DNA of 64,000 nt from Odiellus spinosus (lineage: Eukaryota > Arthropoda > Arachnida > Opiliones > Phalangiidae), in assembly GCA_963920705.1 (NCBI GenBank), contig OY987226.1, positions 11,348,501 through 11,412,500 on the forward strand, given 5' to 3'. Shown piece after piece: positions 3,252 to 61,572 of the stretch (positions are counted from its first letter, which is position 1; the number at the start of each line of letters is the position of its first letter). Below the pieces are notes generated by a model that worked only from the letters and a program-made list of their open reading frames with translations, was not told the DNA's origin and did not search any database. The translations under genes and the position numbers were made by a program.

Positions 3252-3258
3252 GTTGGAT

Positions 3259-3601
3259 CAGAAGCCGATGAAACCCTCCTTTGAAGTCTATTACTCCCGG
3301 GTCTTGTCTACCCCTCTCTGTATGGGTTAGTTTCAAAAAGCGCGATTCGTACGCCTCCTAACGGTAGATATTTTCGGAGCGGGAGTTCGTCGAGCGAATA
3401 TCTCTAGCAGCCTTGGAGTTCGTCATAAAAACGTCGTCGTTTGTGGAGAGAGAGAATTTTCAATTTTCCATAGACAGGGGGGGGGGGTATGAAATAGGAC
3501 CCCTCCGATCTCGTAAAATTGTGAATTTTACCCATACAGAGAGGAGCGCTATATGGAACATTGGAGTAGTAGACTTCAAAGGAGGGTTTCTTCTACTTCT
3601 G
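3259..3601. mobile_element. MITE family M1, copy 1, inserted in minisatellite 2
   Basis: Non-autonomous DNA transposon of 343 bp. It begins CAGAAGCCGATGAAACCCTC, and its right end is the inverse but partly altered, reading TTTCTTCTACTTCTG instead of TTTCATCGGCTTCTG. An exact 7-bp target duplication, GTTGGAT, sits at 3252-3258 and 3602-3608, and it is part of the minisatellite unit. Inner inverted blocks TACTCC/GGAGTA and the CCTCTCTGTATGGGT block are also present. The internal frame at 3413-3643 runs out into the satellite and is not a gene. It is the most divergent of the four copies in the window, with a poly-G expansion near 3478-3487. Confidence 0.93.
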
Positions 3602-3715
3602 GTTGGATGGATGATATTTTTTAATGGAAGATTAAATGGATGACAATTTTTTAATGGAAGGTTGGATGGATGGCTTTTTTTAATGGAAGGTTAAACGGAT
3701 GACATTTTTTAATTT
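3602..3715. repeat. Minisatellite 2 (right part)
   Basis: About four further units of the TTGGATGGATGA...AATGGAAGG repeat directly follow the right target duplication of M1 copy 1. The array was therefore continuous before the insertion. These units are more diverged than those on the left (for example AGATTAAATGG). Confidence 0.93.
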
Positions 3716-5025
3716 GCACTAAACAGTAGTAGGGGCCAAAAGCTCCAAATAAAAAAGTAAAAACTTCAAAATTGATCTAGTAATAGTTCTTTATAGTATA
3801 GTTATTGCCAGCGCGATAAATAAACCCGAGTCAAAACCTTTGGACTAAAACGTAAATAGAAAACAATAGCAGTCTATATAATGAGCAAAAATAGTTAAAT
3901 TATAAACCCCTAATAGCTCTCCTATGCGGTCTTGTAAGATGCCGCGAATCTAAAATTCTACAATTATGGTCTAAATATTCTCCAATTTTCTGATAGGTTG
4001 ATTAATAACAATTTTCATACAAAGTTTCTACAAATTAAGAATATAATAATTATATTTTTTACGAGTACTTGATAGATTCGAATATATTTGCGATAACAAT
4101 TTAGATGAAATTTAAACCCAAAGTGAAAATTAAAACTTCAAATTTCTAATTACTTTTGTATATGTTTGTAGAAACTTTTCCATTGAAAAATAAGTCTTGT
4201 TTTAACTCGATTAACGCGTGTGCAGTGTGAGACTGTGGAATATTTACGATCGTAGCTAATTCTCCTTCACAAAGTCTAGTCCAATTAATTAAAAACGGAT
4301 TTTAAGCAGCCCGATGTCACTCTAACGGGAGAAACTGGGACGGACCCCTAGGCTTCGAGACTAGCTAGAAAACGGGGATTTTAGCATTGCTGGGGAATTA
4401 AAGGTAATTAATTATTTGAGGAGGGGACATTTTTATACCAACCCTTATTTGCCACCCTCCCCCTACCGAGTAGCTTCTACCCCACACTTTCCCTATGACT
4501 AAAACCGTTAATTATGATCCCATTTCACGCGCAGTCCGTCCTTTTCCCAGTTTTGTACGTCTCTTTGTTTTTACAATTCCAAAAGTTTTATGGCTAGGAG
4601 GTGATGAAATAAGATTTAATTAAGAACATTTTGAATTAATTTGGCGGAAATTGCCGTTGACGGTCTGGTTTTTAGGGCTATTTGTTAATTAAATATAGTT
4701 TTTGGAGGAATTTAGAATTTAATTAAGAATGATACATATCCGACTTTTGCTTCATCTATTATTTACAAAACTCCTCGTGCTAATAATGGGAGACTGCTTT
4801 AATTTATTTTCAGAAAGATCGCGCTTAAGCATCTGTCAGAATTTGATCTTCTGTTCTAAAGTATATTTGAAATCTTGTTGCTTTGATCTTAAAAGCTAGT
4901 ATACAAATTTTTTTGTACCTTAAAGGGAACATGCATGAAATGGAGTGTAATTTGTAGCGTAACATAATGTTTAGGTTTCAAACGACCCGAATATATGATC
5001 TGTAGTTAATAGTTTTATTACGGAA
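3716..5025. other. AT-rich intronic DNA, nothing recognised
   Basis: No open frame of note, no exon with convincing splice sites and no clear repeat was seen. A slightly GC-richer patch lies near 4320-4375 and a C-rich patch near 4450-4490. Confidence 0.5.
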
Positions 5026-5385
5026 AATCCATAGAAGGGCAATTTTCAACAAAAGTGGACCAAAGGCATTTAAAATTTTGATCCATTTTGGTCGAACTCA
5101 GGTTATTTCATTTGGTCTATTTCATCGAATTCAGTTGCAATTTTACAAGTTGGACAATTTTTGACGAAATTAAAAGATTTTGCCACATTTGAAAATTCGA
5201 TTTCTTTGCTTATTTTATTGGAGCGCATTTAAATGAAAATCAAACTATGACGTCACGCGCGTGTAAAAACAGCCTCGGTAATTTTTTCCAATTCTTGAAA
5301 ATGAAATTCACGTGTTTGGCGCGAGATCAATTTGAAGAGGCCCGAGCTGAGCCTGCTTTAAAGCTTCATATGCTTTTAATTTAGC
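5026..5385. repeat. Dispersed repeat family H, copy 1
   Basis: Shares blocks in the same order with 26495-26805 and 41400-41585: GACCAAAGGCATTT, then GAATTCAGTT/TTATTTCATTTGGT, and at the end GATCAATTTGAAGAGGCCCGA. A right-end fragment of the same family lies at about 44870-44945. The family is old and diverged, with no ends that I can define. A perfect CRE palindrome TGACGTCA lies inside this copy at 5248-5255. Confidence 0.55.
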
Positions 5386-6080
5386 GCAAGTTAAGGCAGA
5401 TTAATACATAACGCTCTTATGTATATGATGTTATCAACAAAAATTACGATATATATACAAAAGATAGTTTTCTCCTAGCTAGGTCGTTGTCACTTGTCCA
5501 TAGATGTGTGTTAACAATAATTGAATCACAAATAAGAAAAACCAAAGATGGTCTTGAACAGGATATTCCACTCATTGTGTGATGAATGAGGATGTAGGAC
5601 ACTCTGATATCGCTTTTTTTAAAAAAAGAAGATTTTTAATTAAGACAGATACGTTAAACATATGGACTACACTCCCTCAATCCAAATACACATTCTTATG
5701 TGTATGGACTCACAATAATTCTCAGTATTTTCTTGATAGTTAAGATTTGAATCCATTTAGCCTATAACATAATTTTCAGATTTGTAAAAATATCCGTTAA
5801 GTCTATTCCTATAATCAGTGCTTGAAATATTTTCGACGCTTTTTGTTGGCTGCAGAATTTTTTAAATTTGTATTCATCTTTCATCCTTATTTAAAATGGT
5901 GTAATTACGACTTCAAAACTGCTTAATTTATACAGTGTTAATAGTAAACTTTAACTTTTGAGTAGGCCCTAGTGGTTGATTTACTATAGTTTTATGTTTG
6001 CGTAAACAACGTACTTTATTTTCTTTTTCTTAAGTTTTAATTAACCCTAGTTAATTTACCTTTTAAACCCGCAATTGGTT
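5386..6080. other. AT-rich intronic DNA, nothing recognised
   Basis: No exon, RNA gene or repeat of known family was identified. A short poly-T/poly-A snap-back (TTTTTTTAAAAAAA) occurs near 5612-5627. Confidence 0.45.
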
Positions 6081-6084
6081 GTTG

Positions 6085-6375
6085 ATTAGGTGTGTGTAAA
6101 CAATCCTTTTTCCCCCCTCTTTACCTGCTGTGTATGTGGCGCGCGCGGTCGAGCTTTGACCCTTAAGACTTGGCTTTATAGTCTTTCTCCTACACACGGA
6201 TCCCTAGCCTCTTCCCCCGATCTTAAAGACTATTTTCTCTCTAGTCGGGGGCGGGGGGTGAGTGAGAGTAAGAATGGACCGGGGTGAGAGGGGAGAAGTG
6301 ATCTTCGCCTCGCCTCCTCATTGCGGGATGAATTCCCGCCTCTTGGCTTTAACTGCGCAGTCTCATTCACGTAAT
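6085..6375. other. GC-richer patch of unknown role
   Basis: Stands out from the AT-rich surroundings. It contains GGCGCGCGCGGTCGAG near 6138-6153, a G-rich stretch near 6243-6300 and several CpGs. Two short frames cross it, at 6090-6287 and 6262-6516, but they overlap in different frames and resemble no protein I know. It may be a regulatory element or an old insertion. Nothing in the sequence decides this. Confidence 0.35.
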
Positions 6376-6764
6376 GCCAATATAGCTTGTCCTTATTTGA
6401 CTGCAAAAACTAGTTATCCTTTAAAAGTAAAGTTTTCCACTATTTGGAAATTTTTGATTTTATTCCGCGTATCATTATATTGTATTTTACAATATCTTGA
6501 TCATATTTTATATTAAATATATAATTTATTTCAGATGTGATTTTAAGTTCTAATTTTCAAGGAATTTCTATAATTTTATGCATTTTACACATTTTTTATT
6601 TCCAAAAGACGAATTTTGGTCTAAAATCTGACCTGTAATTAGGCCTTTAATAAAACCCTAGTAAATATAATTAGTAATTTATAGATTTGTAGGGCAATAG
6701 TAATTTATGATTTTGTAGAGAGAGTTTTTCTTTCAAAATGACTTTTTATTCGGCTTTAGTTTCA

Positions 6765-7165
6765 AAATATTAGTAGTAATGGCTAAAGGTTTTTTTTTAT
6801 TTCAAAAATATGATCATGCAGTGACTTAAATTCTGGAGTTTAAAATATGAGCTGTAATTTCTCTAGTTAAAAAAATAGCAGTCATTTCTTTAGTTTAAAA
6901 CAAAAATACCGGTTATTTTTCTGAAGTTCAAAATATTAGCGGTACTTAAATTATGTAGTTCAAAAATATTAGCAGCTCTTAAATTTTGTAGTTCAAAAAT
7001 TTGTCCAGTTAAATTATGTATTTAAAAAAATTACCAGCTTTTAAATTCTGTTGAAACAAATTAGCTTTATAAATTCTGCAGTTCAAAAATACGACTAGTA
7101 CTTAGTTTCTGTAGTTCAAAAATATGACCTAAAGTACCTAACTTAAATTCTGTAGTTAATTTAGT
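6765..7165. repeat. Degenerate tandem repeat, ~35-40-bp unit
   Basis: About nine imperfect repeats built on CTTAAATTCTGTAGTTCAAA followed by AATATTAGCAG, with spacing drifting between about 35 and 60 bases. This is an old minisatellite decayed by substitutions and indels. It is not coding. Confidence 0.7.
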
Positions 7166-7299
7166 ACTTTTTTTACTTTAAGTAGGGACTTTATTTACAA
7201 ATGATAGGTATTATAATATAACTTGAACAACTAAAATTTACATTATTTAGTCAAAACAAAAACACAGTCTGCTTAGAAACGTGACTAAATGTTTTTACA

Positions 7300-7570
7300 A
7301 GAATTTCGGGTTTAGAGTATATTTGCTCTCACGTGGCAAATCTTCTTCCCAGGGATGGAGAGAGGATGGGGAGAAGGGGATGGAGAATGGGGGATGAGGT
7401 GGAGAAGAAGCCCAAGAGCGGAGTAGAGAGATCCGGTGATGCGACGGAGGCTGACTACTAGGCTTTTGGCGCGAGAACAAGCCCCGACTTAGTGAGATGG
7501 AGATCGTAACGGCCTTGCCTCTGAGAAAGTCGCTCCTAGTCGCGCGGACCCCCGGATGGCCCGTTCGGAT
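7300..7570. other. GC-richer patch with a C-free G-rich tract
   Basis: Positions 7351-7410 contain no cytosine on the + strand and carry four separate G runs of three to five bases (AGGGATG, ATGGGGAG, AAGGGGAT, ATGGGGGAT). This could form unusual structures, though the loops are long for a stable quadruplex. It is followed by a CpG-containing stretch up to about 7565. The minus-strand frame 7295-7480 is a low-complexity reflection of this tract, not a gene. Confidence 0.4.
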
Positions 7571-8645
7571 TTGATGTTGTTCTCGTAAAAATTCAAATTT
7601 AAATATTTTTCATTAGTTTAATTATCTCCTCTTTACGAAAAAAAAAATAATATAGTTTCTGTTTTTGGTTAGGATAAAAATTATCGCCCTTTAGAATTAT
7701 TGGAAGTCGTGTTATTAATCAAGATTTGTAAAATATATATTCGAAGGTTATTTAGGGATTATAACTGCCATAGTTAATTGGTTAATTATTAAAAAAGTTG
7801 TTTTAATTGTTATATATACGGTAACTAATAATATCATTTAACCGAAAGTTTCTTATAAAAAGCTAAAATTATGAAGTATTTAAAGTTTCAAAGTTACTTT
7901 CTTAGTTTAAGTGTTATCGTAAATTCGGTTCACCTTCTACCAGACAAAATTCCTATTGGTAAGAATTTTATATATATTATTGTTTCAATTTAATGTTTTA
8001 ATTTTAATTTGGGTGTAATTTCAATATTTCTTATGTGCGAATGCCTTCAATGCGCATATAAGCATGTTCTATATATTATTTTAATCATTTTGTAATTGAA
8101 GACTTAATTATAATTAAGACTTAATTATAATTAATTTAGTTTATGAGTTATAGTTTGAGTGATATGAAATTAATAAGACCTAAATTTGATGTCAGAAATT
8201 TTAACTAACCCTCTAGTAATAATTTTGCATGACATCATAAAAGTCTAAATATTTATTTAGTATAAAATAATTTAGTTAAATTTTAAAACCGTTATTCATA
8301 TATCTTTTCAGATATTTAATTTTCATTAAATCATTATTATTAATTATTAAAAATACAGCTTGGATATTCTAAAAATATAGTTGATATGGTTTATTTGAAG
8401 ATAAATATTGAAACTTTATCTATAATCTAGTAAGTCGTAGTCAAACGTATGAGAACGGATAATAGAATTCGTGTAAAATTAATATAGTTTAAGCTCATTA
8501 AATTCCCTCCAACAAATAAATAATCAATTCGAAGAAAATTAATAATTTGATAAATGCATCTATTTAGGTTTTATTTTTATTATTATTATTATTTTTTTTT
8601 TTGGCATTATTTTTCCAAATTTTGAAATATTCTTGTCATTTTCGG
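7571..8645. other. Very AT-rich intronic DNA, nothing recognised
   Basis: Long AT-rich stretch with an (ATT)n-like tract running into poly-T near 8575-8602. No exon or classifiable repeat was seen. Confidence 0.5.
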
Positions 8646-8652
8646 ATAAAAC

Positions 8653-8989
8653 CAGAAGCCGATGAAACCCTCCTTTGAAGTGTATTACTCCCGGGTCTTG
8701 TCTACCCCTCTCTGTATGGGTTATTCTCAAAAGTCGCGATTCGTACGCCTCCTAACGATAGATGTTTTCGGAGCGGGAGTTCGTCGAGCGAATATCTCTA
8801 GCAACCTTGGAGTTCGTCCAAAAAAGGTCGTCATTTGTGGAGAGAGAGAATTTCCAATTTTCCGTAGACAGGGGGGATGAAGTAGGACCCCTTCTAACTC
8901 GTAAAATTGGGAATTTTACCCATTCAGAGAGGAGCGCTATATGGAACATTGGAGTAGTAGACTTCAAAGGAGGGTTTCATCGGCTTCTG
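8653..8989. mobile_element. MITE family M1, copy 2
   Basis: Intact 337-bp element starting CAGAAGCCGATGAAACCCTC and ending with the inverse, GGGTTTCATCGGCTTCTG. The terminal inverted repeats extend about 39 bases, through the TACTCC/GGAGTA block. A second inverted block (CCTCTCTGTATGGGTTA against ACCCATTCAGAGAGG) lies further in. The exact 7-bp target duplication ATAAAAC is at 8646-8652 and 8990-8996. Open frames on both strands here (8662-8880, 8752-8967, 8762-9025) are shared with other copies only because the copies are similar. No transposase motif is present. Confidence 0.95.
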
Positions 8990-8996
8990 ATAAAAC

Positions 8997-9590: not shown

Positions 9591-9593
9591 TTT

Positions 9594-9953: not shown

Positions 9954-10072
9954 AGAAAATTAAAATATTCCAATTTTTCTTATAATCAATCCCGAAATTA
10001 ATTAATGAATGGGCGGCTATCAAATTACCTTATAAATTGGTATGTATAGGAGAATTTAATCAATTCGCCTGA

Positions 10073-10378
10073 GTGTTATTCTACATTCCACACGTACATG
10101 CAAATATATCACCTAATATATTTGCAAAGAGCTCTCTATCTTCTCTACAACCTGGCATAGTTTCTGCAATATGTATAATGGCGTTTTCCAAATTGAAGGG
10201 AAAAGCCCAAGCACCTTTTGTAATTTACCAATATCCTTTTGTACAAGGATCTCATTTGATTGAAATTGCCAAATTAGATCACTTTAAAACTCTACCATTT
10301 ATAGTAAATTTTGGGAAACAGGAAGTGTTAAAATTCTTTATTGTAATTGAAGAGAGAATGCTACCTAAGAACAAGTGA
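10073..10378 (+). CDS. Uncertain 101-codon open frame
   Basis: An ATG-to-TGA frame of 101 codons lies between two T1 elements. Its composition is more even than that of most spurious frames here, with mixed hydrophobic and charged residues and no low-complexity run. However, I recognise no domain and see no promoter, splice site or poly-A signal tied to it. Its last ~10 codons lie inside the left terminal repeat of the next T1 element, so the stop codon is transposon-derived. Chance, or a fragment of a mobile-element or viral protein, are the likely alternatives. I would not treat it as a gene without transcript or homology evidence. Confidence 0.12.
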   Translation: MLFYIPHVHANISPNIFAKSSLSSLQPGIVSAICIMAFSKLKGKAQAPFVIYQYPFVQGSHLIEIAKLDHFKTLPFIVNFGKQEVLKFFIVIEERMLPKNK

Positions 10379-10788
10379 TTTTTTTATCGATTCCTTATTG
10401 TTTAAATAGGCCTAATCCACTAGTGAAAAAATTTACGAACAAATATTAAACTAGAAATAATTTCAAAACTTATCCGGAAAATAGACTTAGCGGGATTCAT
10501 GGAGATCCTGATTTCCTCGCGTATAAGGTCTAGCGACCAATCGAACGCGATTGTAAGTTTGGTGGAGATCTCGCGTGAACGACGGGCCTTCGCTCATTGG
10601 TCGCTAGACCTTACACGGAGGAAATTCAGGATCTCCATGAATCCCGCTAAGCCTATTTTCCGGGTGAGTTTTAAATTTATTTTTAGTTTAATATTTGTTT
10701 TGTAAACTTTTTATCGGTGGATTAAGCCTATTTAAACGATAAGGAATCTTTAAAAAATCACTTGTTATTAGGTTGCATTCTCCCTTCA
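10349..10788. mobile_element. TTAA foldback MITE family T1, sub-family B copy
   Basis: About 440 bp. Left end is GAGAGAATGCTACCTAAGAAC and right end is the inverse, GTTATTAGGTTGCATTCTCCC. The flanking TTAA sites are mutated (TTGA and TTCA). The terminal repeats are about 170 bases long. The core differs from sub-family A, carrying AATCGAACGCGATTGTAAG and GAACGACGGGCC. The frame at 10499-10705 is read through the element and is not a gene. Confidence 0.9.
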
Positions 10789-12110
10789 ACTTTTAATATA
10801 TATGTAGTTTGATATTTAATTTGGTTAAATTTTAGTTTTTGACGTAACCTGTAAAGTAGAAATAGTAGTGTTGTGTGGGCAGTGTTTTTGATTCAAGTTA
10901 TGTTTTCGCTTCTTTAAATGTACAATAGACCCTCCAGGCCCTTATACATCATCAACACCTCTTTTAGTATGTCTTAATCTGTCCAATTAAATATAGCACA
11001 ACGTATGTACACTTACACTAACATGACTTTTCTTACTATAAACCAACAATGTAACCAAACTTTACCACGATATCCGTTTGTCTCAAATCCCAATCACTTG
11101 TTGAAGACCATCTTACAGGATGGCCTAAAGTCTTCTACACAAGTCTCCTAGACAAACTATACAATCTTACGAAAGCATTACTTCCCTAACCCTCGTCTAA
11201 CCACTCAGAAAAGAGAGAACTTTAGCAAACACGTTAAGAAGTACCTTCGTTACCCATCTATCGGCGCTTTTTAGAGTTTTCGAGGGTTTTCGAGATCGTC
11301 GTCGTCAAAGTAGCCACCGTGATGAGGAGGTTTGGGTTTGGTGGTGGTGGTGGTATTGAGAAGAGTTGAGTATCTCTTTTAGAAGGATAGCGATATGTAC
11401 ACGCTTTTAATCTCGCCCAATGAGATTTGGTAATGACTACTTTTTTCTACGAGGTTGAACTCGTTGTATTAATACGCCTTAGTTTTGCCCTATTTTGACA
11501 ATTCCTCTTGAATAGAATTATACGAGGGGTAAAAGGATGCCAGGATAGGCTTATCGGGCTTTATGCAGATGAGAGGAAAGGCTAATGGATTCCCAAGTCA
11601 AACAAGCCTCAGGCGCTAACTCACCCCCCCCCCCCTCTCTCTCTTCTTTCTCTCTCTCTCAATTCGGGAACGTGGATAGATTGATAGGCCTATAGATGTG
11701 GAGAAAGTTGTACGTATCATCAGTCACCTTTTTGAAAGCAGATAGAGAGAAATATTTTGCTATAATAAACCATGTACCGTTTTGTTTGGAATTTTGGTGG
11801 GGTCATAAGGTAATACTAGTTCCCTGTAAGTTAAATAATCATATTAGAAAAAAAAGGTTGGATTAAATATGGTATATATACCATATATACCATATTTAGA
11901 GTTTCAAAATTATCATAATTTTGGGAATTTTGACTAAACAACCCTCACACTCTGGAAAAATTAAATTTTTTTCATGATAAATTTGCCCATCTTAGAGCAA
12001 AGTAACTTGGTTATTAGCATTCATGTTTAACGATCATTCCGAAATGCTAAATAAATTAAATTTGAGTGTATTTAAGACAAAATAAGTTAGTTATACCGCA
12101 ATCAATTTGG
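10789..12110. other. Intronic DNA with simple repeats
   Basis: No exon was recognised. A run of 12 C followed by CT-rich repeats lies at 11624-11660. A short perfect palindrome built from GGTATATATACC is at about 11869-11895. A moderately GC-richer stretch with GTGGTGGTGG lies near 11310-11355. Confidence 0.5.
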
Positions 12111-12114
12111 TAGA

Positions 12115-12268
12115 GATCGGGGTTTGGACAAAATAATCCAGTTAATCATAAAAAAATAATCGGAAAAATATTCGCGCTTTCATTGGATTTATTATAGACT
12201 TCCCTCAAAAAATTTCAAGTTATGAATAAAGATAAAATAATCAGAAATTTCTTGTCCAAACCCCGATC
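12115..12268. mobile_element. Small inverted-repeat element, family E, copy 1
   Basis: A 154-bp element whose ends are GATCGGGGTTTGGACAA and the exact inverse TTGTCCAAACCCCGATC. The interior includes AATAATCGGAAAA and TTATGAATAAAGATAAAATA. A reverse-oriented, one-end-truncated relative lies at about 58870-59018. No target duplication is clear. It is a MITE of unassigned superfamily. Confidence 0.75.
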
Positions 12269-13159
12269 TTTACAATTTGGAATGGTTTATTTTGCACCTT
12301 TATTTTTAATCATTTTTCTTAACAATAAAGTAACAGTCTCGAAAATTAATTTAATAATATTCTAAATGAATCAAGGTACATTAATCACCATGGTCCATAA
12401 GTTTTGTGTAAAGATTTGGTTTATTTTTCTGTATTTTAACTATATATAGAAAGTATGTGGTATACATTATTTGCTTATCAAATTTTATCGAAATTAATTA
12501 CATCAATAATTTTTATATATTTATAATTATTCGTGTTTAGGTGTCTGGAAAATTAACTTACACACTCTTGTAAGTTTAGACCTATCTCTGAAGATGCGCG
12601 GTATAATATTCCCCCGTAACCCAATCTAATTTGATAATTTAAACCGACTTGAAGTCTTCCAACGAAGATTCGGAGCTCCAATTAAGACCAGAGAGCTGAA
12701 CTTCAAAGTACAATGGAACTTATTTTTTTTTCTTACAAATATCTAGAATATTTTCACTCTAAATTGAATCTAAAGCGGAAATCCAGGGAAATATAATTCT
12801 CATTTTAAAATGGCTTGCCTCAACTTTTACTCTAGTAGAGTCTCTAATTTAAAAATGCTCTACTTTGCGTATAGTTAAGCGTTTAACAAGGAAGCAGGCT
12901 CGTAAAATAGTATCGTAAAACGCATCTATTCTAAATTGGAGAAGACCATGCATATATAAGGGTCGCTTTTAAGAGTTTCCTTCAATTAATTTAACGACCA
13001 GTATCACGGTATGTACCGAGATCGTATAAGGCGCAAGTTTTGGCGTCTAAAGATGCGCATCAGGCCTCGATATCATAGATAGAGCGGAGGAGTACTATTT
13101 CAAAATTTACCCTTATAAAGGGAGCGTGAAGTGCGAGGGGAAATTGGTAACAAATACTA

Positions 13160-14270: not shown

Positions 14271-14439
14271 ATTAGAAATGGATATGTTTTTCGCGAACGA
14301 ATAATCTCTGATTGACATTCACGATGGTTTTATTCAATTAACGAAAGTTATACGAATCTACAATTGCTTTTACGCGAATTATTTTTACAATCAATATATT
14401 ATACTTACAGGTTTAAATATCATAGACTTATAATATTAC

Positions 14440-14756
14440 CAAGAATCCATTCAAGTTCCATAAGAATATGGGAGCATAGCTTTAGCCTCTGGTACCATCC
14501 TCCCAAACTTTATAACAAAAGTTCGTCCGCAATTTTCGCAACATTTGTACGCTTAGATCTTTTTTGGTCGGCTCCATTTTTATTACCCAAAATATTATGT
14601 CAAGGTCGTTAGTGGCGCGGGTTAATAATAGATGTCAGGAGCGATTTACTTGAAAAATAGATTCGAAGCAGACGAACTTTTGCTATACAAAGTTTGGGAG
14701 GATGGTTATTGAATCGCGGCCCTGCCATATTCTTATGGAACCTGAATGGATTCTTG
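14440..14756. mobile_element. MITE family M2, copy 1
   Basis: A 317-bp element with ends CAAGAATCCATTCAAGTTCC and GGAACCTGAATGGATTCTTG. An exact 7-bp target duplication ATATTAC is at 14433-14439 and 14757-14763. Repeated subterminal motifs are CCATCCTCCCAAACTTT and AAAGTTTGGGAGGATGG, in inverse orientation. It is nearly identical, in the opposite orientation, to the copy at 17107-17422. No coding capacity; the frame 14364-14612 merely overlaps it. Confidence 0.94.
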
Positions 14757-14763
14757 ATATTAC

Positions 14764-16792: not shown

Positions 16793-17106
16793 AAAGGGAT
16801 TCTCACTGTGATAAAATCAGTGACTTAGAGCTAATAGAGGGAAAGGTCTAAATTAAGAAAACTGATATAACGACGTCTGATGGGTTTTCCTTACTCTCTG
16901 GATGTTCCTTTGTTGTTTATAAGAGTTTGAACTAGTAGAGCAGGTAGCCATGGACGATGGATCTTAGAATCGAAGAGGGGCAAATATTTGCATTCTTAAT
17001 CACCGAAAAGAGGTTTCTAGAGTAAAGAGAAAGGGAAAGGGAAAAATTTAACACTTATGAAAACCAATGGAAATTATATAGTATTTTAAAAGGGTATACA
17101 TTCCAG

Positions 17107-17422
17107 CAAGAATTCATTCAGGTTACATAAGAATATGGGAGGGCCGCGATTCAATAACCATCCTCCCAAACTTTGTAGCAAAAGTTCGTCTGCTTCGAAT
17201 CGATTTTTTAAGTAAATCGCTCCTGGCATCTATTATTAACCCGCGCCACTAACGACCTTGACATAATATTTTGGGTAGTAAAAATGGAGCCGACCGAAAA
17301 ATGATCTAAGCGTACAAATGTTGCGAAAATTGCAGACGAACTTTTGTTACAAAGTTTGGGAGGATGGTACCAGAGGCTAAAGCTATGCTCCCATATTCTT
17401 ATGGAACCTGAATGGATTCTTG
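17107..17422. mobile_element. MITE family M2, copy 2 (opposite orientation)
   Basis: A 316-bp element starting CAAGAATTCATTCAGG and ending CCTGAATGGATTCTTG, flanked by an exact 7-bp target duplication ATTCCAG at 17100-17106 and 17423-17429. Its interior is the reverse complement of the copy at 14440-14756, with few differences (for example AAATGATCTAAGCG against CGCTTAGATCTTTT). Such similarity between two copies suggests fairly recent activity. Confidence 0.94.
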
Positions 17423-17429
17423 ATTCCAG

Positions 17430-18967: not shown

Positions 18968-18971
18968 TTAA

Positions 18972-19387
18972 AGGGAGTATGCAACCTAACAACAAATGAT
19001 TTTTTATCGATTCCTTATCGTTTAAATAGGCCTAATCCAAGAGTAAAAAATTTTACAAACAAATATTAAACTAGAAATAAATTAAAAATTAATTTACCAT
19101 CAAAAAAGGCTTAGCTGGATTCATAGAGATATCCTGAACTCCCGACCAATGACATTGATCATTGAGGTCCTGCATTCCCCATATAAGAGCAATCGATCAA
19201 TGTCATTGCTCGCTATACGGGAAGTTAAGGTGATTCACATGAATCCATCTAAGCCTATTTTGATTGTAAGTTTTAAATTTGTTTCTAATTTAATATTTAT
19301 TTTTATTTTTTTACTTTTGGATTAGAGCTATTTAAACGATAAGGAATCGTTAAAAAAATCACTTGTTTTTTAGGTTGCATTCTCCCT
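18972..19387. mobile_element. TTAA foldback MITE family T1, sub-family A copy
   Basis: About 416 bp between TTAA sites at 18968-18971 and about 19387-19390. Left end is AGGGAGTATGCAACCTAAC and right end is TTAGGTTGCATTCTCCCT. The core carries ATGACATTGATCATTGAGG and, inverted, ATCAATGTCATTGCTCGC. The terminal repeats cover most of the element, so a transcript would fold into one long hairpin. Confidence 0.93.
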
Positions 19388-19390
19388 TAA

Positions 19391-19974
19391 AAGCGTAAGT
19401 TAAATTTGGATTTCGATATCAAAACTGATTTCGTCTTGATATTTTCTACAAGTCGATTCATAACAAGTGCAGTCTAATGTGAACGTAATTTTCGAACCTT
19501 TCACTCTTATTCACAAACGATGAAAAGGGTTGCGAAAAAAATTTAACTATAGATCTCGAATAAAGACTTAACAAAAAGACGTTTGAATGCGTATATCTAA
19601 AAAGTGTTAACACTTGAGTGGTTGGGTATAATAAGCGGTAATATAATATTCATTCTCTAGTAGAGAACGGAGTTATACAGAGGACTTTAGCTTAGTTTAT
19701 TTAGAAGTCCTCTTTTAAAAGTATGATTACGAGCATTATATGTAATTTAAACATCCTTTCGAATCACGTATTCAATGTTAATTTAGGTTCTATATTACAA
19801 ACAAGCTTAATGTAGAGCAAATATCGTTATATACTAAAGTTCACCATGTCAAATATTCAGATTAAATTAGTCTTATGAATTTAAAATTATTTTTTAAATT
19901 AAAATAGAATAACTTACATAGTTTGTGTTATACAAACATAATAAATGCCATGCTACAAATGGAGTGTGCCCCCT
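19391..19974. other. AT-rich intronic DNA, nothing recognised
   Basis: No exon or repeat family recognised between the T1 and family G elements. Confidence 0.4.
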
Positions 19975-20660
19975 GTGCTCCATATCTGAATGTAAGGCAA
20001 ACTTTTTATTCGTACTCATTGATACGTTATGCGAGTGATTCGTTCCCCGATAAAAAAATTTGAAACCCAAGTTTCTTCGCCGATTTTAACCCAAATTGCG
20101 ATCTTGAAGCTAGAATGTAGTAATTTTGTTTGCTCCTTTCAATTTTGATTAAAATATAATTATATATAATTCTACACGGATTTCGAGAAACGTCATATTT
20201 AATCTTCCCATTATCCGTTTGAATTAACGCGTAATTTGTTTATTATGGATATCAGAAGCCGATGAAACCCTCCTTTGAAGTCTATTACTCCCGGGTCTTG
20301 TCTACCCCTCTCTGTATGGGTTATTCTCAAAAGGCGCGATTCGTACGCCTCCTAACGGTAGATGTTTTCGGAGCGGGAGTTCGTCGAGCGAATATCTCTA
20401 ACAGCCTTGGAGTTCGTCCAAAAACGTCGTCGTTTGTGGAGAGAGAGAATTTCCAATTTTCCGTAGACAGGGGGGATGAAGTAGGACCCCTTCTAACTCG
20501 TAAAATTGGGAATTTTACCCATACAGAGAGGTGCGCTATATGGAACATTGGAGTAGTAGACTTCAAAGGAGGGTTTCATCGGCTTCTGTGGATATCTTAA
20601 GTTATTTATTATCCGATTCCAATCTCTGAAGTTGCTGCCTTAATTGAAACCACGATTTTC
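19975..20660 (+). repeat. Dispersed repeat family G, copy 2, split by M1 copy 3
   Basis: Left part (19975-20252) matches 13170-13330 and, inverted, 14100-14270. The right part (about 20596-20660) continues with TTATTATCCGATTCCAATCTC, as at about 13454-13485. M1 copy 3 lies between the two parts and carries a clean target duplication, so family G was in place first. Confidence 0.65.
20253..20588. mobile_element. MITE family M1, copy 3, nested in family G
   Basis: Intact 336-bp element with perfect ends CAGAAGCCGATGAAACCCTC and the inverse. The exact 7-bp target duplication TGGATAT is at 20246-20252 and 20589-20595. The 112-codon frame at 20262-20600 runs across the whole element, including both terminal repeats. 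The other copies have shifted or broken versions of it, so it is not a conserved protein. Confidence 0.95.
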
Positions 20661-25684: not shown

Positions 25685-25688
25685 TTAA

Positions 25689-26081
25689 AGGGCGAATGCA
25701 ATCTAACAAGTGATTTTTTTATCGATTCCTTATCGTTTAAATAGGCCTAAACCAACTGTAAAAAAATTTAGAAACGAATATTAAACTAGAAATAAATTTA
25801 AAACTTACCATCAAAATAGGCTTAGCTCTATTCATGAAGATATCCTATAAGGACTAGCAACCAATGACATTGATCATGGAGATCCTGCATTCCCCATAAA
25901 AGAGCCATCGATCAATGTCATTGGTCGGTACTCCTTAGATGATCTCCATGAATCCAGCTAAGCCTATTTTCCGGGTAAGTTTTAAATTGAATTCTAGTTA
26001 AATTTTTTACTGTTGGATTAGGCCTATTTAAAAGATAAGGAATCGATCAAAAATCATTTGTTTTTAGGTTTCATTCTCCCT
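25689..26081. mobile_element. TTAA foldback MITE family T1, sub-family A copy
   Basis: A 393-bp element with clean TTAA at 25685-25688 and 26082-26085. Left end is AGGGCGAATGCAATCTAAC and right end is GGTTTCATTCTCCCT. The core ATGACATTGATCATGGAGAT is followed by its inverse ATCAATGTCATTGGTCGG. It has no coding capacity. Confidence 0.95.
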
Positions 26082-26494
26082 TTAAGAGTTTAGATCGACT
26101 TAAAACGTCTTACATGGAATTTAGATGATTCTTAAAAGCTCCAGCAATATTTCTCTATTTTGAGCGTATATCACCTAAGAAGTTGCAAATCCGTAGAATA
26201 TTTCACTTATCCTAAGTAAATATATTTATAGGATATAAGATATGAATTTTTGAAATTTCTTTTGGAAATTCGAGGTTTAAACTCCATGATCAAAAATTCC
26301 CGCGTGTTATTAAGAAACATCTCAACCGCAAGTGTGTTTATTACATGCTTCAAAACTATATTAAAGTCATTGCCAGAATTCCAAGCTCGCGAATTTAATC
26401 TTAAGAAAATTAATCTTAATATACTCACATAGATAACGAAAGAAATTGACTTTCCCCTTGCAGCAATCGGGAAAAAGAAAATGTTATTTGGTTA

Positions 26495-36936: not shown

Positions 36937-36940
36937 TTAA

Positions 36941-37360
36941 AGGGAGAATGCAACCTAAAAACCAGTGAATTTTTATCGATTTACTTATCGTTTAAATAGG
37001 CCTAATCAAACAGTAAAAAAATTAAAAACAAATATTAAACTAGACAAATTTAAAACTTGCCCTGAAAATAGGCTTAGCTGGATTCATGGAGATCACCTGA
37101 GCTCCCCGTATATAAGGACCAGCGACCTACATTGATCGATGGCTCTTATATAGGGAATGCAGGATCTCCATGATCAATGTCATTGGTCGCTAGTCCTTAT
37201 ACGGTGAGTTTATGATATCTCCATGAATCCAGCTAAGCCTATTTTGATGGTAAATTTCAAATTTATTTCTAGTTTAATATTTGTTTGCAATCAATTTTTT
37301 TTACTGTTGGATTAGGCCTATTTAAACGATGAGGAATCGGTGTTAGGTTGCATTCTCCCT
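36941..37360. mobile_element. TTAA foldback MITE family T1, sub-family A with inverted core
   Basis: A 420-bp element with clean TTAA at 36937-36940 and 37361-37364 and ends AGGGAGAATGCAACCTAAAA and GTTAGGTTGCATTCTCCCT. Its core reads TCGATGGCTCTTATATAGGG before GATCTCCATGATCAATGTCA, which is the reverse of the core order in the copy at 25689-26081. Confidence 0.95.
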
Positions 37361-37364
37361 TTAA

Positions 37365-38738: not shown

Positions 38739-39417
38739 AAGGAAAACTTGGAGCTAAAAATTGAACTTTTAGACACTTTTTTGATATTTAAATTAATTTC
38801 TAAAGTTTGGAATTTTTTTATAAAAGTAAAATCAGAAGCCGATGAAACCCTCCTTTGAAGTCTATTACTCCCGGGTCTTGTCTACCCCTCTCTGTATGGG
38901 TTATTCTCAAAAGGCGCGATTCGTACGCCTCCTAACGGTAGATGTTTTCGGAGCGGGAGTTCATCGAGCGAATATCTCTAGCAGCCTTGGAGTTCGTCCA
39001 AAAAACGTCGTCGTTTGTGGAGAGAGAGAATTTCCAATTTTCCGTAGACAGGGGGGATGAAGTAGGACCCCTTCTAACTCGTAAAATTGGGAATTTTACC
39101 CATACAGAGAGGAGCGCTATATGGGACATTGGAGTAGTAGACTTCAAAGGAGGGTTTCATCGGCTTCTGGTAAAATCATATAATTTCACCCTTCAACAGT
39201 GCTTGTAATGTCTTACCATTAAAAGATTATGCCGGTGATTGATGCCCAACGTCTTACGCTGACCTATTTTTTTAATGTTAAGACATTACAAGCACTGTTG
39301 AAGACTAAAATAATATGATTGGTCCGAATTTAGATTTGCTATTATAGAAATTAATTAAAACACCTAAAACGAGTTTAAAAATTCAAAAGCTGTTCCATTT
39401 TTAGCTCCAAGTTTCCC
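38739..39417. mobile_element. TTAA element family T3, split by M1 copy 4
   Basis: Left T3 part is 38739-38832 (AGGAAAACTTGGAGCTAAAA, AATTAATTTCTAAAGTTTGG). The right part is 39177-39417 (CAACAGTGCTTGTAATGTC, its inverse GACATTACAAGCACTGTTG, and the end TTTTTAGCTCCAAGTTTCCCT). A TTAA follows at 39418-39421; the left TTAA is mutated to TTCA. Part of the left T3 sequence is missing compared with 33577-33997. It lies about 290 bp upstream of the receptor exon. Confidence 0.88.
38833..39169. mobile_element. MITE family M1, copy 4, nested in T3
   Basis: Intact 337-bp element with perfect CAGAAGCCGATGAAACCCTC ends and the exact 7-bp target duplication GTAAAAT at 38826-38832 and 39170-39176. It differs from copies 2 and 3 by only a few bases. 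Frames at 38842-39060 (+), 38932-39147 (-) and 38942-39208 (+) are reflections of the element and encode no recognisable protein. Confidence 0.95.
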
Positions 39418-39681
39418 TTAAGTTAAAATGTTTTTTATCCTGTCTTATAGCTTTAAAATATAAGACCTTTATGGATTCTCCACAAGATTCCCTTTAAACA
39501 GAATAACGATAAAAATAGTTTCGTAAATTAACGATTTAGGAACCTTATAAATTCCAACGAGATAAAGTGCTCGCAATTTCAATTACGCTAATACGGTTAC
39601 AATCCGATTAAATGGTAGCCTTTTGTTATCTGAATATTCTTTCTATATTGGTTGAAATATACAAATATAATCTAATGGTTA

Positions 39682-39707
39682 TCTTTTTCTGATATTTATT
39701 GTTTTAG
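39682..39707 (+). other. Splice acceptor of the receptor exon
   Basis: A pyrimidine-rich tract (TCTTTTTCTGATATTTATTG) leads to TTTTAG, with AG at 39706-39707. CTGAT at 39689-39693 is a plausible branch-point core, although rather close to the acceptor. Using this AG gives a reading frame that matches the receptor family. Confidence 0.85.
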
Positions 39708-39860
39708 GAGCCGTATTCACACCGGGTACTGAAGAAATGCAAACCGCATTCAAGTACGCCATTTACCTCCACAATACGAACGAAACTCAAGCCAGGTTTA
39801 AAGTTGAACCCATTATGGACGTCATAGACAGTGACGATGCCTTCAAAATTTCCAGAGTCC
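39708..39860 (+). CDS. Internal exon of an AMPA-type ionotropic glutamate receptor
   Basis: A 153-base exon, phase 1 at both ends: GA completes a glycine codon (G|GA) begun in the preceding exon, 50 full codons follow, and the last C opens the next codon. It reads GAVFTPGTEEMQTAFKYAI, then YLHNTNETQARFKVE, PIMDVIDSDDAFKISRV. This is the start of the extracellular amino-terminal (leucine/isoleucine/valine-binding-like) domain: first strand with GAVF, helix A with AFKYA, the RF-KVEP strand, and DAFKISR entering helix B, where a cysteine normally follows. From memory of the family, insect GluRIA/GluRIB (AFKYAM..HN, DVI...DAFK.SR) fit better than kainate, NMDA or Ir types. NETQ contains no N-glycosylation sequon, but NTNE and HNTN are adjacent: N-T-N and N-E-T, the latter (NET) being a sequon. 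The protein would act as a glutamate-gated cation-channel subunit in neurons or muscle. Length is a multiple of three, so skipping the exon would keep frame. The rest of the gene is not in view. Confidence 0.9.
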
Positions 39861-39866
39861 GTAAGT
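39861..39866 (+). other. Splice donor of the receptor exon
   Basis: GTAAGT directly follows GAGTCC, matching the metazoan donor consensus and closing the exon in phase 1. Confidence 0.88.
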
Positions 39867-40145
39867 ACATGTTTATTTTAATACCGTGTTTTAAGTGAGA
39901 AGCATTACGAATAAGGTTATTTGTCAAAGGCAGTTATTTTTAGTTTTATTTACCTTAGAGCTACTTTTTTTTTTATTCATAATATTTGACTTCGACTCTA
40001 TGAACAGACTTAATTATCAATATAAATGATTTAGGTAAGGTTGGGTTAGGTTCCGTCGTAGTCGGGGAGGTGATATTATTGTTACAGAGTTACCACATCT
40101 TTAAATCGTAAACCCTTTAAATTATTTTAAAAATAACACTAAATT
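39867..40145. other. Start of the downstream intron
   Basis: AT-rich DNA. It contains GGTAAGGTTGGGTTAGGTT near 40034-40052, which is too short and irregular to be telomeric. No exon is visible. The downstream intron runs at least to the end of the window, because I recognise no following exon in 24.1 kb. Confidence 0.5.
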
Positions 40146-40149
40146 TAAA

Positions 40150-40310
40150 CAATGAGCTAAAATTGGAACATCTTTTGAATTTATTTTCGGAATCACCGTG
40201 TCGAAAAACGTATTTCAGAATGTTTTCCCAAGTATTGGACACGTTTTAGGTGTTTTTAATTAATTTCTAAAGTTTGGTTAAGTGAAGTATAAAATCGAAC
40301 CAATCAAATG
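40150..40310. mobile_element. TTAA element family T3, left-half fragment
   Basis: GAGCTAAAATTGGAACATC, TTTTGAATTTATTTTCGGAATC, ACACGTTTTAGGTGTTTTTA, AATTTCTAAAGTTTGG and GAACCAATCA follow the left half of the intact copy at 33577-33760. The right half is absent. Confidence 0.75.
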
Positions 40311-41586: not shown

Positions 41587-41590
41587 TTAA

Positions 41591-42020
41591 AGGTAGAATG
41601 CAACCTTACAAAAAGTAATTTTTTAATCGATTCATTATTGTTTAAATAGGTCTAACCCACTAGTGAAAAATTTACGAACAAATATTAATCTAGAAATAAA
41701 TTTAAAACTTACCCGGAAAATAGGCTTAGCGGGATTTATGGAGATCCTGATTTCTTCGCGTATAAGGTCTAGCGACCAATCGAACGCGATTGTAAGTTTC
41801 GTGGAAATCTCGCGTGAACGGCGGGCCTTTTCATTCGTCGCTAGACCTTACACGGAGGCAATCTAGGATCTCCGTGAATCCCGCTAAGCCTATTTTCCGG
41901 TAAAGTTTTAAATTTATTTCTAGTTTAATATTTGTATTGTAAACTTTTTATCGGTGGACTATGCCTATTTAAAACGATAAGGAATCTATTAAAAATTAAT
42001 TATTAGGTTGCATTCTTCCT
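41591..42020. mobile_element. TTAA foldback MITE family T1, sub-family B copy
   Basis: A 430-bp element with TTAA at 41587-41590 and 42021-42024. Left end is AGGTAGAATGCAACCTTAC and right end is TTAGGTTGCATTCTTCCT. The core AATCGAACGCGATTGTAAG and GAACGGCGGGCC is as at 10349. The frame 41663-41866 is read through it and is not a gene. Confidence 0.95.
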
Positions 42021-42024
42021 TTAA

Positions 42025-51774: not shown

Positions 51775-51800
51775 AAAAAAAAAAAAAAAAAAAAAAAAAA
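51775..51800. repeat. Poly-A run of 26
   Basis: Uninterrupted A tract. No retroposon body is recognisable immediately upstream. Confidence 0.9.
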
Positions 51801-53065: not shown

Positions 53066-53068
53066 ATT

Positions 53069-54764: not shown

Positions 54765-54768
54765 TTAA

Positions 54769-56930: not shown

Positions 56931-57935
56931 GCTTACGTCAGTCGTCAGCTGCGACTTATTAGCTTCTATCGCTTACTTGTTCGCCTTCCCAAATCGTTTA
57001 CTGATATCGAACCAAAGGATGAGGAAGGCAAATAGAGAGAGAATCGAGTAATGATTACGTTCGCTTAACTAATATAGACTCCATGCCTTTCATTTCATTG
57101 CTTATTCGACAGTGAACGTTCTGTATTTCTATCCCACTCTATCTCGGATCGCGGCTCACTCTTTTTATCATCAACTCTACGTTCTCAGATGTCTGCGTGG
57201 ATGCTAGACATGTACTTGCACTATATGTATTAGGATGGAGGCAGATTGAGAGATGTATCATATTCTTAATATCACTCTTGCTCTTGTTCTTCTTTTTCTT
57301 TTTTTTTTTCGTTGGCTTCTCTCGATCTCTCTGTCTCTCATCATCTTCCTTTCTGGTCGTTTCCGTTTCCTATTTCTTTCATTATTGTTGGTTCAAGAAA
57401 GATCAGATCATCAAAACCAACATCGGGCTATTGTTTCAATGATCATTAAGTGATTTTGATGAATGGATGGGAAACTCTTATATGATATTGAATTGATAGT
57501 GAATTGTTTTATGCTATCGAGACAATATAAAATGTATACCATGTCCATACATGCTTTGATTAATCTTTGCGTGATATATTGCAATAACGGGCTAATTGGT
57601 TAATTGGATTGAATTATACTCGAGGTGTTTAATTGAATATTAATGCAATCAGAGATTGTATTTTTAACTGATTCATTTTTAAATGGGAAGTCAGTTTAGT
57701 TAATTCAGAAAACATGATATTGTCTTCAACTTGTTACGATAAAAATAAAAGGGACCAAAAATTGTGTCTTTAGTAAATTAGTTTTAATTACGATTAAACG
57801 ATATTCAAAAAAGGATACTTTTAGAATTATGTTTTTGATATTTCCTTCAGGCTCCCATTAAACCCAGGAAAAATAAAGGGTTTTCACTATTTAATAATTA
57901 AATTTTAACCTCGAGTTAATTAGTTACCTCCCGAC
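56931..57935. other. Intronic DNA with a pyrimidine-rich tract
   Basis: 57260-57400 is very pyrimidine-rich (CTCTTGCTCTTGTTCTTCTTTTTC and 10 or more T). The frames at 57197-57453 reflect this low complexity. CCGATTGGCTTACGTCAG near 56923-56940 combines an inverted CCAAT box with a CRE-like half, noted without functional support. Confidence 0.45.
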
Positions 57936-57939
57936 TAAT

Positions 57940-58018
57940 TTTTTAAATAGTGGATTAGGCCTATTTAAACAATAAGGAATCGATAAAAAATCACTTGTTG
58001 TTAGGTTGCATCCTCCCT
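57940..58018. mobile_element. T1 right-end fragment
   Basis: TGGATTAGGCCTATTTAAAC, AATAAGGAATCGATAAAAAA, TCACTTGTTGTTAGGTTGCA and CTCCCT, then TTAA at 58019-58022. Only the outer ~80 bases of the right arm remain. No left arm was found within 1 kb upstream. Confidence 0.85.
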
Positions 58019-58022
58019 TTAA

Positions 58023-58865
58023 GGGGCTGTTTAAATTTTATACATATACAATAAGTAGACTACCGTTTTAATCTTATTTTAAGTATACAAGTGTTGCATT
58101 TGATTATTTATACTTTTATAAAGTTTCTATGTACTATCATATACGTAAAGATAGGTATAATAGATAACAAAATAAACAACTCCGTTATGTTCCCTTCGTA
58201 CCTCGAGTCTTTTAAAATTAATTACCAAGTTCTGGCGCACCTTTTCGAATAAATTAAAATTTATTTGAAGTTCAAAGAGTGTGCGTGTGTGTGCGTACGG
58301 AGAGTACCGGGTGGTCGACCCCGCCGTAGCAATATTCTCGTTAATTCAATTGTAATTAAGCTGACTAGGCGACGACGCGGCCTCTCTTCCTTACCACTAT
58401 TCCAACCTTCACCCATCTTCTCGTATACACTTTTCAACTTTTCCCATCAATACCAAAATAAAATATTAATTTTTCAAAAGCCGTAGAGTCAAGGGGCACA
58501 TATATAGGAAGCATGAGGCAATTTTAAAGGGACTGTCAAAAGGAAAAATTTTCAAGATTCCATTTTGCTGTGAATAAACCTTACCTACTGATATGATTTA
58601 GTAGATGGTCATTGCGCATAATCAATGTACAAGCCTGGGTGGTTATTGCGTAAGCATTTAGATACGCCGTTTTCGATCGAAATCTTACAGTTTATCGACT
58701 TCGAAATCGAGAATTTAAATGATTGTATTCGGTAAATAGATTTCGATCGAGAAGACTATTTATTGGAAATCTGAATGATTCATCGAAGTCGATTTCAACA
58801 AGGAAAGGGTTGTCGAGATCGATATCAAGATATAGAAAAACTCCCCCCATAGTATTTTTAACTGT
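58023..58865. other. Intronic DNA, nothing recognised
   Basis: A short (GT)n run lies near 58280-58294. TTTCGATCGAAATC-type motifs recur at about 58671, 58740 and 58790. TTAAAGGGACTG near 58524 resembles a TTAA-element end without a partner. The frame 58265-58486 shows no family resemblance. Confidence 0.4.
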
Positions 58866-58869
58866 ATTT

Positions 58870-59018
58870 ATTAGATTATTTTATCTTTATTCATAACTTA
58901 AAATTTTTCGAGGAAAGTCTATGATAAATCCAATGTAATCGTGAATAATTTTCCGATTATTTTTTTATGATTAACTGATTAACTGATAGTTGTGGATTAT
59001 TTTGTCCAAACCCCGATG
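58870..59018 (-). mobile_element. Small inverted-repeat element family E, copy 2 (truncated)
   Basis: On the minus strand this begins ATCGGGGTTTGGACAAAATA and continues ATCATAAAAAAATAATCGG, GGATTTATCATAGACTTTCC and TTATGAATAAAGATAAAATA, matching 12115-12240. The far terminal repeat is missing. Confidence 0.7.
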
Positions 59019-59925
59019 TCTAGTATTTATTCTAGCGATTACGTCAGTACGTATTTAGCATTACTAAAGGCAGGAATCGGGTGCGCAAATTTCACGAAAA
59101 AGACTAATCCCTGGACATGGCCCGGTTTGATTTCATTTGAATATGCACAACCTTATTTTATTTTCCTTTTCACCCATCGTTTTAAAACTCTTCCCGTTCG
59201 TGGATCGGTTTCCGTAGTATCTCGTAGCGCGCTTTCTCTCATCTCGTGATATATTCTCTTCCCTGGCGTCTTGTATTCAATAATTAATTCTCCAACCTTT
59301 TCGAGACTCTTCGCTCTCTCGGGGGAGGTGCCGCCTGAAGCTAATCGATAATTTTGCTTGGTGCGCGCGTATACTAAGAGTGGGACCCTCGCGAAAGTAA
59401 ACAGATTAATATCTGAATATATTCATTCGAAAGGTCTGGCTGTTACGTTATAATATAAACAACTCTTTGAAGTAGATACAATTTTTAAATATTCACCCTC
59501 TTTCATATATCTCCCATTTTTTCTTTTTTTAAGTTGAAATACTATTGAAGAATTCATCCAATTCTATAAGCTTGTTAATTTTTTTTTATTTTTTTTATTC
59601 TCCTTTCAGTTTAATGATGTGAAATATATTCAAGGCTTATCTGTAGTTAAGGTCTAGATAAAGCAGCCTTGGGAAGGGGGTTTGTAGTTTTCGATATGCA
59701 ATCAGTTTTTGGACTTTTTCAAGATAGGGTGCTCTATTTTAAATATTTTAGGACTTAAAAAAGTAATAGACAACATTTCAATGCTTGCAGAAAGATTATT
59801 TTTACTTAAAAGGAATGTAATTAAATTAATTTAAACGCGATTAAAGTTATAAAAATTCCTAATTCCAATGCATACTTATCTTTCTGTCGTTCAGATTAAA
59901 TGGAGGCTGTCCAAATTATAATTAC
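59019..59925. other. Intronic DNA, nothing recognised
   Basis: A moderately GC-richer stretch lies at 59100-59400. The frame 58992-59249 shows no family resemblance and its start lies in the family E element. Confidence 0.4.
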
Positions 59926-59929
59926 CTCG

Positions 59930-60000
59930 ACAGTAAAAATACATATTTTATAATCACCATTTTCGAAATTATAATATTACGTGTGGCTATTGTTACTGTT
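59930..60000. repeat. Dispersed repeat family F, partial copy
   Basis: CAGTAAAAATACATATTTTA, TAATCACCATTTTCGAAATT and CGTGTGGCTATTGTTACTG. The ACTACGTCATCACTA block found in the other two copies is missing. Confidence 0.55.
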
Positions 60001-60865
60001 TTAAACACTACTAGCTTTAGGAAGAGCTAGAAAATAACTCATTCCAAAAGAAGGCAGCTCTGGTTAGTTTTTTTTACTATTACTGTGGTAATAAGTAACC
60101 TGTATTCATCCTTTGAAAATTAATCAATATAAATATATACATGTACACCGTGAAATATATGGAAATATGGAACCAGATTATCTTACATTTTTAAAAATCG
60201 AGAAATTCGTGGAATTATTTTAATTTAAAACTTCGAATCTCCATATTGTTGAATATCTCCCTGACAAAAAAATGAAAGGTTCATGTTTAAGTCAAATCTT
60301 CGAGAGTCACGTTACGCTTCGCGTCTTTTCTTCTCGAGAAAATGAAGAAGCATGGAGAAGAAAAGAAAATTCGTGGGTGGAAAATAAAAAAAGCTCTTTA
60401 AAAACCTGCTTGGCATCAAAAATGCATTTCTATCCAGAGTTTGCTTGACAGAAAATGGCATTTTTTTCATTTCGTGAATGTTTACCAAGCGACTATTCTA
60501 TGACTATATACCCTGGTCTTTCAACTTTTCCATTGCTTGAAAAAGAACTAAAATATTTATGGATTAATCAGGGTTATACGCCATAAATATTAAATACTCT
60601 CTGAACTGAATAGGTTTTTTTTTTCTTTTCTTTTTCTTTGTAAGGCAGTCTACATTATTCAAGATTAAAGGGAGGGTGTTGTGTAACATATTAAGATTTA
60701 CTTGGAATAAGATTTTTTTTAATATATATTTTTATATAATTATAATATTGGTACCTGTAGTTAAAAGTAATTTGAAATAATGGAAAAATAAAATAATTTT
60801 CGTTAATTAGTGTATATACTAATGAAGGAAAATTATATAATATTTCTTAAAATAAGGCTTGATGA
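60001..60865. other. AT-rich intronic DNA, nothing recognised
   Basis: TTAAAGGGAGGGTGTTGTG near 60664 resembles a TTAA-element left end; no matching right end was found. No exon recognised. Confidence 0.4.
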
Positions 60866-60869
60866 ATTT

Positions 60870-61062
60870 TTATCAACTCCAAATGGAAATTAAGTAGCAT
60901 TTTCGGAAATGTCGTTAAAAAATGATTATAAAAGTATGTCATAAAAATATTACCCTTACAGTAAAAATACATAAATTTTATAATCACCATTTTCGAAATT
61001 TTTAAAATAAAAATTTCACCGCCATACTACGTCATCACTATCGTCGCGTGGCTATTGTTGCG
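60870..61062. repeat. Dispersed repeat family F, copy 2
   Basis: AAGTAGCATTTTCGG, CAGTAAAAATACATAAATTTT, CACCATTTTCGAAATT, ATACTACGTCATCACTATCG and CGCGTGGCTATTGTTGCGCC follow the order of 35035-35200. Confidence 0.6.
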
Positions 61063-61070
61063 CCTACAAT

Positions 61071-61378
61071 CAAGGATTAGTCAACCTCACAGGGATAATT
61101 CACTCTGGTACGATTTGCTATACTAGTAGTTGAAGATGTTTGTTTCAAACATGGCTGCCAGACATTTTATCCGGCCCCTCAATTTTACCCTCTTACCGAT
61201 ACAAATCCGGAAGTAATCCATGAGAGCATCGTCTGCCTTAGAGTTTTTTCCCCTCCAATATTTCACCCCGTATATCGGTAGCTAGAACTTCCGGTGTAGA
61301 CAATTTTCGTCACCAGGGTGCGATTCGAACAATCATTTTACCAAAGTGAATTATCCCTGTGAGGTTGATTAATCCATG
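61071..61378. mobile_element. MITE family M3
   Basis: A 308-bp element starting CAAGGATTAGTCAACCTCAC and ending with the near inverse GTGAGGTTGATTAATCCATG. The arms of about 45 bases continue through AGGGATAATTCACT and TGGTA. The exact 7-bp target duplication CTACAAT is at 61064-61070 and 61379-61385. The interior is GC-richer (CCGGAAGTAATCC, CTTCCGGTGTAG). No coding capacity. It sits against the end of a family F repeat. Confidence 0.9.
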
Positions 61379-61572
61379 CTACAATTGATTCTTGTCCTTT
61401 CTGGCACGCCCTACTAAAGTTCACTCGGAGAGGTAAAAACATATATAGTTTAGATCACAATATTTACCCAATGAATTCTTTCCTGACAAACCCGTTTACA
61501 AATTTAATGTTTTCTAATATACAATCCTTCATAGAATTTTCTTTTAATACCAATTGGTTTCTCTTTTTAAAA

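Follow-up and report, generated by a model that had tools for sequence, protein, structure and literature searches.

The window analyzed here, a 64,000-nucleotide stretch of the Odiellus spinosus genome (C2:11348501-11412500 in the 443-Mb, 286-contig assembly that was searched), carries seven complete copies of three families of miniature inverted-repeat transposable elements (MITEs), M1, M2, and M3. These are most probably independent families moved by 1360/Galileo-like transposases of the P superfamily (THAP plus RNase-H-like) that generate 7-bp target duplications. Across the genome, exact 7-bp duplications flank 77 of the 86 complete copies inspected, and none of the 86 has the exact 8-bp duplication of canonical P elements. 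We infer the action of a P transposase on these MITEs from a signature that combines the duplication length, the target motif, and the inverted repeats with the occurrence of an appropriate type of transposase in the same genome; the link rests on this signature because no autonomous parent with M1, M2, or M3 ends was found.

In all seven window copies (Table 1), CA adjoins the left duplication, TG adjoins the right one, and inverted repeats are present, comprising 39 bp in M1, ~90 bp (78-79% identity) in M2, and ~40 bp in M3. The copies, their CA...TG ends, and their exact 7-bp duplications were each found where the original prediction had placed them, and its claim that the families share no further sequence held as well, the best between-family blastn match having an E value of 0.35. 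A scan of the window for inverted repeats (arms separated by 80-2999 bp and matching at 16 or more of 20 bases) returned eight rows in which the longest duplication was 7 bp, namely, the seven MITE copies and the pair at 39358-40255 with its AT-rich flank (TTAATTA), and eight rows at 8 bp, mostly from another, palindromic repeat family. Because exact 7-bp flank matches occur at a rate of 0.000685 at random positions 300-344 bp apart, seven such duplications in seven copies are not due to chance. The window elements span 308-343 bp and carry no transposase gene of their own; the longest open frame over any of them is a 121-codon stop-to-stop stretch across an M1 copy (20235-20600). Such short lengths bar these elements from being autonomous P elements, but not from being P-mobilized MITEs.

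Genome-wide, 3113 first-look candidates were obtained with the M1 query (flank included), 1191 with M2, and 369 with M3. Forty copies per family were scored, and those read were mostly the best-scoring ones, so that young copies are overrepresented. The M1 sample comprised 27 copies of the scored list and a second copy in L005, followed by a second set picked for unusual subterminal sequence; the M2 and M3 samples comprised 20 of the 40 scored copies each. L001, which is a window copy, was counted once, three wider pairings spanning unrelated ends were dropped, and L088, L130, and a partial M1 in L079 were excluded from the total of 86 as incomplete. Exact 7-bp duplications were found in 38/41 copies of M1 (30/32 distinct complete copies, then 8/9 in the second sample), 20/23 copies of M2 (2/2 in the window, 17/20 among those fetched, and 1/1 in L131), and 19/22 copies of M3 (1/1, 17/20, and 1/1, respectively). 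Six of the nine remaining copies (L004, L082, L090, L092, L112, and L125) mismatch at one base in 7, L114 is two bases off, and the flanks of L026 and L103 are unrelated. A genome-wide prevalence of 8-bp or variable duplications, named in the original prediction as an outcome that would speak against it, was not seen.

The presence of CA...TG in 20/20 loci each of M2 and M3 is partly a matter of choice, as these loci were trimmed at the query's own ends. The left end of the window M3 copy, CAAGG, is a variant; the 20 other fetched M3 copies all start with CATGG. In L081, L082, and L087, the M1 terminus is CAGAAGTAGATG in place of CAGAAGCCGATG, possibly representing a subfamily. Median divergence from the consensus is as low as 0.6% in M2 and 1.0% in M3 (20 copies each, among the best-scoring ones), which suggests recent activity; the M1 consensus mixes both orientations, so that its ~42% rows are not divergences.

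The target of all three families is a palindrome, in most cases carrying T as its second base and A as its sixth, a combination found, with both strands counted, in 57/60 readings for M1 (30 sites), 27/32 for M2 (16 sites, L115 left out), and 26/34 for M3 (17 sites). The M1 target is RTWWWAY, A/T-rich inside; that of M2 leans toward A at position 3 and T at position 5, in a GTANTAC-like manner; and that of M3, the weakest of the three at position 2, leans toward T at position 3 and A at position 5 with an open center, in a GTTNAAC-like manner. The palindromic target of the 1360/Galileo-like branch of the P superfamily is seen in M2 and M3 by motif and in M1 only as RTWWWAY.

The published systems provide the background for this assignment. 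In Drosophila melanogaster, 1360 (Hoppel/ProtoP) has 7-bp duplications at 274/279 sites, with the motif GTTNAAC that the M3 target resembles, as opposed to 8 bp at 1207/1226 sites for the P-element (PMC3276498). Galileo, too, mostly has 7-bp duplications (three copies have 8), with a target consensus that reads GTATTAC in D. willistoni and, when six genomes are combined, GTANTAC (PMC4168063), a signature that is also supported by PMC2775673 and is resembled by the M2 target. Therefore, the premise of the original prediction that P-type transposases produce 8-bp duplications and that 7 bp is unusual does not stand, and no "less-known" transposase has to be invoked, because 7 bp is already a known length in the P superfamily. 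The likeness to 1360 comes from this signature rather than from sequence comparison and, unlike the 308- to 343-bp M1-M3 elements, 1360 encodes a transposase. Galileo differs in having long, internally repetitive inverted repeats, compared with the 39 to ~90 bp of M1-M3; its amplified short derivatives have been proposed to be MITEs (PMC10990002). The P-MITEs of Anopheles gambiae are likewise short and have inverted repeats, but duplications in Anopheles are 8 bp long for P elements and P-MITEs alike, and the ends of those MITEs are common with identified P elements (PMC1562414), a kind of parent not found here.

Transposases of the P superfamily are present in the same genome. All 150 scored matches to the PF21787 domain (from 386 candidates) were over the curated cutoff, and 21 of these 150 places were read at length (L059, L060, L062-L069, L070-L079, and L057, the last together with the flanking L061). 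Duplications of 7 or 8 bp were sought in one set of P regions and of 6 to 9 bp in another. Six of the 21 regions could be delimited (Table 1), five of them by 7-bp duplications and one by an 8-bp duplication; 15 were not delimited, including L068, which has a good inverted repeat and no 7- or 8-bp duplication. According to Pfam, PF21787 is present in all six delimited elements, and THAP is present in L066, L057, L078, and L079. PF21788 is over the cutoff in these same four elements, is below it in L070 (the first frame of which had no Pfam match), and had no match in the single frame of L063 that was scanned. The main stretches of L057, L070, L078, and L079 are 45-53% identical, whereas L066 and L063 show 22-28% identity to the rest and to each other, the identity between L066 and the remaining four 7-bp elements being just 23-28%. 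The four proteins compared with solved protein structures all matched the Drosophila P transposase 6p5a, L057 with an E value of 3.3e-21, L079 with 1.2e-19, L066 with 2.4e-12, and L063 with 2.3e-5. Like the MITEs, the 7-bp elements L070 and L078 start with CA and end with TG. In L066, a second frame near the right end (5416-5715, minus strand) resembles, by eye, the element's own THAP frame, so that this element is possibly composite. An 856-codon P transposase frame is found in L039, L040, L041, and L043 (the L039 place is covered by L060), three copies differing by <0.1% and the fourth having a stop; this is a very recent spread, and the ends of the element were not found.

Several observations weigh against the P-superfamily assignment. 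The full-length element with these termini that the original prediction called for was sought for M1 and M3, and the end-pattern search found no autonomous element with the ends of either family among the hits read; its patterns exclude the MITE interior, so that a parent with inner ends identical to those of the MITE would be missed. None of the six delimited P elements (0/6) shares the ends of M1, M2, or M3, and their first 16 bases match those of the MITEs at only 3-10 of 16 places. The element closest in this respect (9, 7, and 10 matches to M1, M2, and M3, respectively), L063, begins with CA and is the only one with an 8-bp duplication, which is a mild point in the same direction, and three of the five 7-bp elements begin with CT or CG, not CA. 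Consequently, the CA...TG ends as such are no indication of a 7-bp transposase.

The candidates for a parent were rejected on inspection. Ten of the at least 195 M1-pattern hits were read, and nine were complete M1 copies. The tenth, L088, has an M1 end on diverged sequence, with 115 bp of M1-like sequence at 71% identity; followed inward for 5 kb, it shows neither a second end nor any similarity to the six P proteins and is therefore an old M1 fragment. Two of the three M3-pattern hits were read, of which L131 contains an internally deleted M3 copy flanked by a 7-bp duplication and L130 contains an M3 fragment without the right end. An M1-like terminus near the P transposase in L074 (at 1506) falls within an open frame and lacks a partner, which makes it a chance match. 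Among the matches listed, the places with M1-end patterns were not near the PF21787 places (compared by eye).

Another candidate for moving these MITEs is a hAT7-like enzyme of the hAT superfamily that cuts its target 7 bp apart, and the CA with which hAT ends often start counts in its favor. Rust fungi have hAT families with 7-bp duplications (PMC12730594), which adds to the case against a P transposase; hAT7 is defined by its hAT transposase. The hobo motif GTNCGNAC likewise has T as its second base, mirrored by an A (PMC3276498). Nevertheless, hAT duplications are usually 8 bp long (PMC12730594), the target centers TTNAA and TANTA are those published for 1360 and Galileo, and 7-bp P elements exist in the same genome, making a hAT origin unlikely, although no search aimed at hAT elements was made in this genome. 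Slightly less likely still is the action of another or novel lineage on all three families. Such a source would fit the failure to find an M1 or M3 parent, and its known candidates share some of the features: Kyakuja (KDZ) has both 7-bp duplications and CA..TG ends (PMC12730594), and Dada has 6- to 7-bp duplications (PMC3706591). However, as reported in these two papers, Kyakuja and the described Dada families are without terminal inverted repeats, which conflicts with the 39- to ~90-bp repeats of M1-M3, and Dada sits in small RNA genes, whereas the sites here are many and different, mostly AT-rich. Accordingly, of the transposases proposed in the original prediction, the P-like one is favored by the 7-bp length, the palindrome, and the 7-bp P elements in the genome, and the Dada-like one is disfavored.

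The idea that the 7-bp duplications reflect chance or the picking of copies can draw on the preference for best-scoring copies and on the location of some sites in simple repeats (L115, an M2 copy in a GTA repeat where lengths 4 and 10 match too, and L127). Set against the random rate, the 77/86 copies already refute it, and its probability is practically nil. If the MITEs are moved by a P-superfamily transposase, this enzyme would, by analogy with P elements, pair the terminal inverted repeats and excise the element. The excised element would be joined to a palindromic target, whose second base is T and whose sixth is A, at cuts staggered by 7 bp, and gap repair would then produce the 7-bp duplication, as expected from known P-element behavior.

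Table 1. MITE copies in the window and delimited P elements of the same genome (duplication starts are given for the window copies)
Element	Place	Span with duplications	Element coordinates	Strand	Duplication	Remarks
M1	window	3252-3608	3259-3601	+	GTTGGAT (3252/3602)	91.5% identity to the copy at 8653
M1	window	8646-8996	8653-8989	+	ATAAAAC (8646/8990)	
M1	window	20246-20595	20253-20588	+	TGGATAT (20246/20589)	
M1	window	38826-39176	38833-39169	+	GTAAAAT (38826/39170)	
M2	window	14433-14763	14440-14756	+	ATATTAC (14433/14757)	
M2	window	17100-17429	17107-17422	-	ATTCCAG (17100/17423)	inverted relative to the first M2, with its own duplication; 95.6% identity to it
M3	window	61064-61385	61071-61378	+	CTACAAT (61064/61379)	
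P element	L066		636-5953		GTAGAAT	7 bp
P element	L063		1186-5611		GTTATAAC	8 bp
P element	L057/L061		C1:7167009-7170785		CTTCAAA	7 bp
P element	L070		909-4856		ATTAAAT	7 bp
P element	L078		766-4905		ATCCGAC	7 bp
P element	L079		341-4921		GTTTATA	7 bp

In addition to M1-M3, the window contains other repeats. Copies of a fourth and larger MITE family, the ends of which resemble TTAAAGGGAGAATGCAACCT, are found at 10347-10789, 18968-19391, 25685-26085, 36937-37364, and 41587-42024, with more ends up to 62519; the TTAA at its edge suggests what is presumably a Kolobok- or piggyBac-like TTAA element. A short element at 12111-12272, the ends of which read TAGAGATCGGGGTT, is flanked by the 8-bp duplication CAATTTGG, and related sequence is found near 58874-59022. 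Long tandem arrays of 23-bp and then 29-bp repeats extend from 260 to ~3365, the first 4 kb showing strong GC skew, and a repetitive 128-codon open frame lies at 1101-1487 on the minus strand.

A tentative possibility is that, within the P superfamily, 7 bp is the common and maybe even the ancestral stagger length and canonical P, with its 8 bp, is the exception, because five of the six delimited P elements, including the divergent L066, use 7 bp and because three MITE families with different target centers all use 7. If so, stagger length and target center would vary independently. The rule of thumb that equates P with 8 bp, which would misfile MITEs of this kind, is corrected by these data, and the coexistence of 7-bp and 8-bp P elements in one genome makes the cause of the stagger length testable by comparing relatives.

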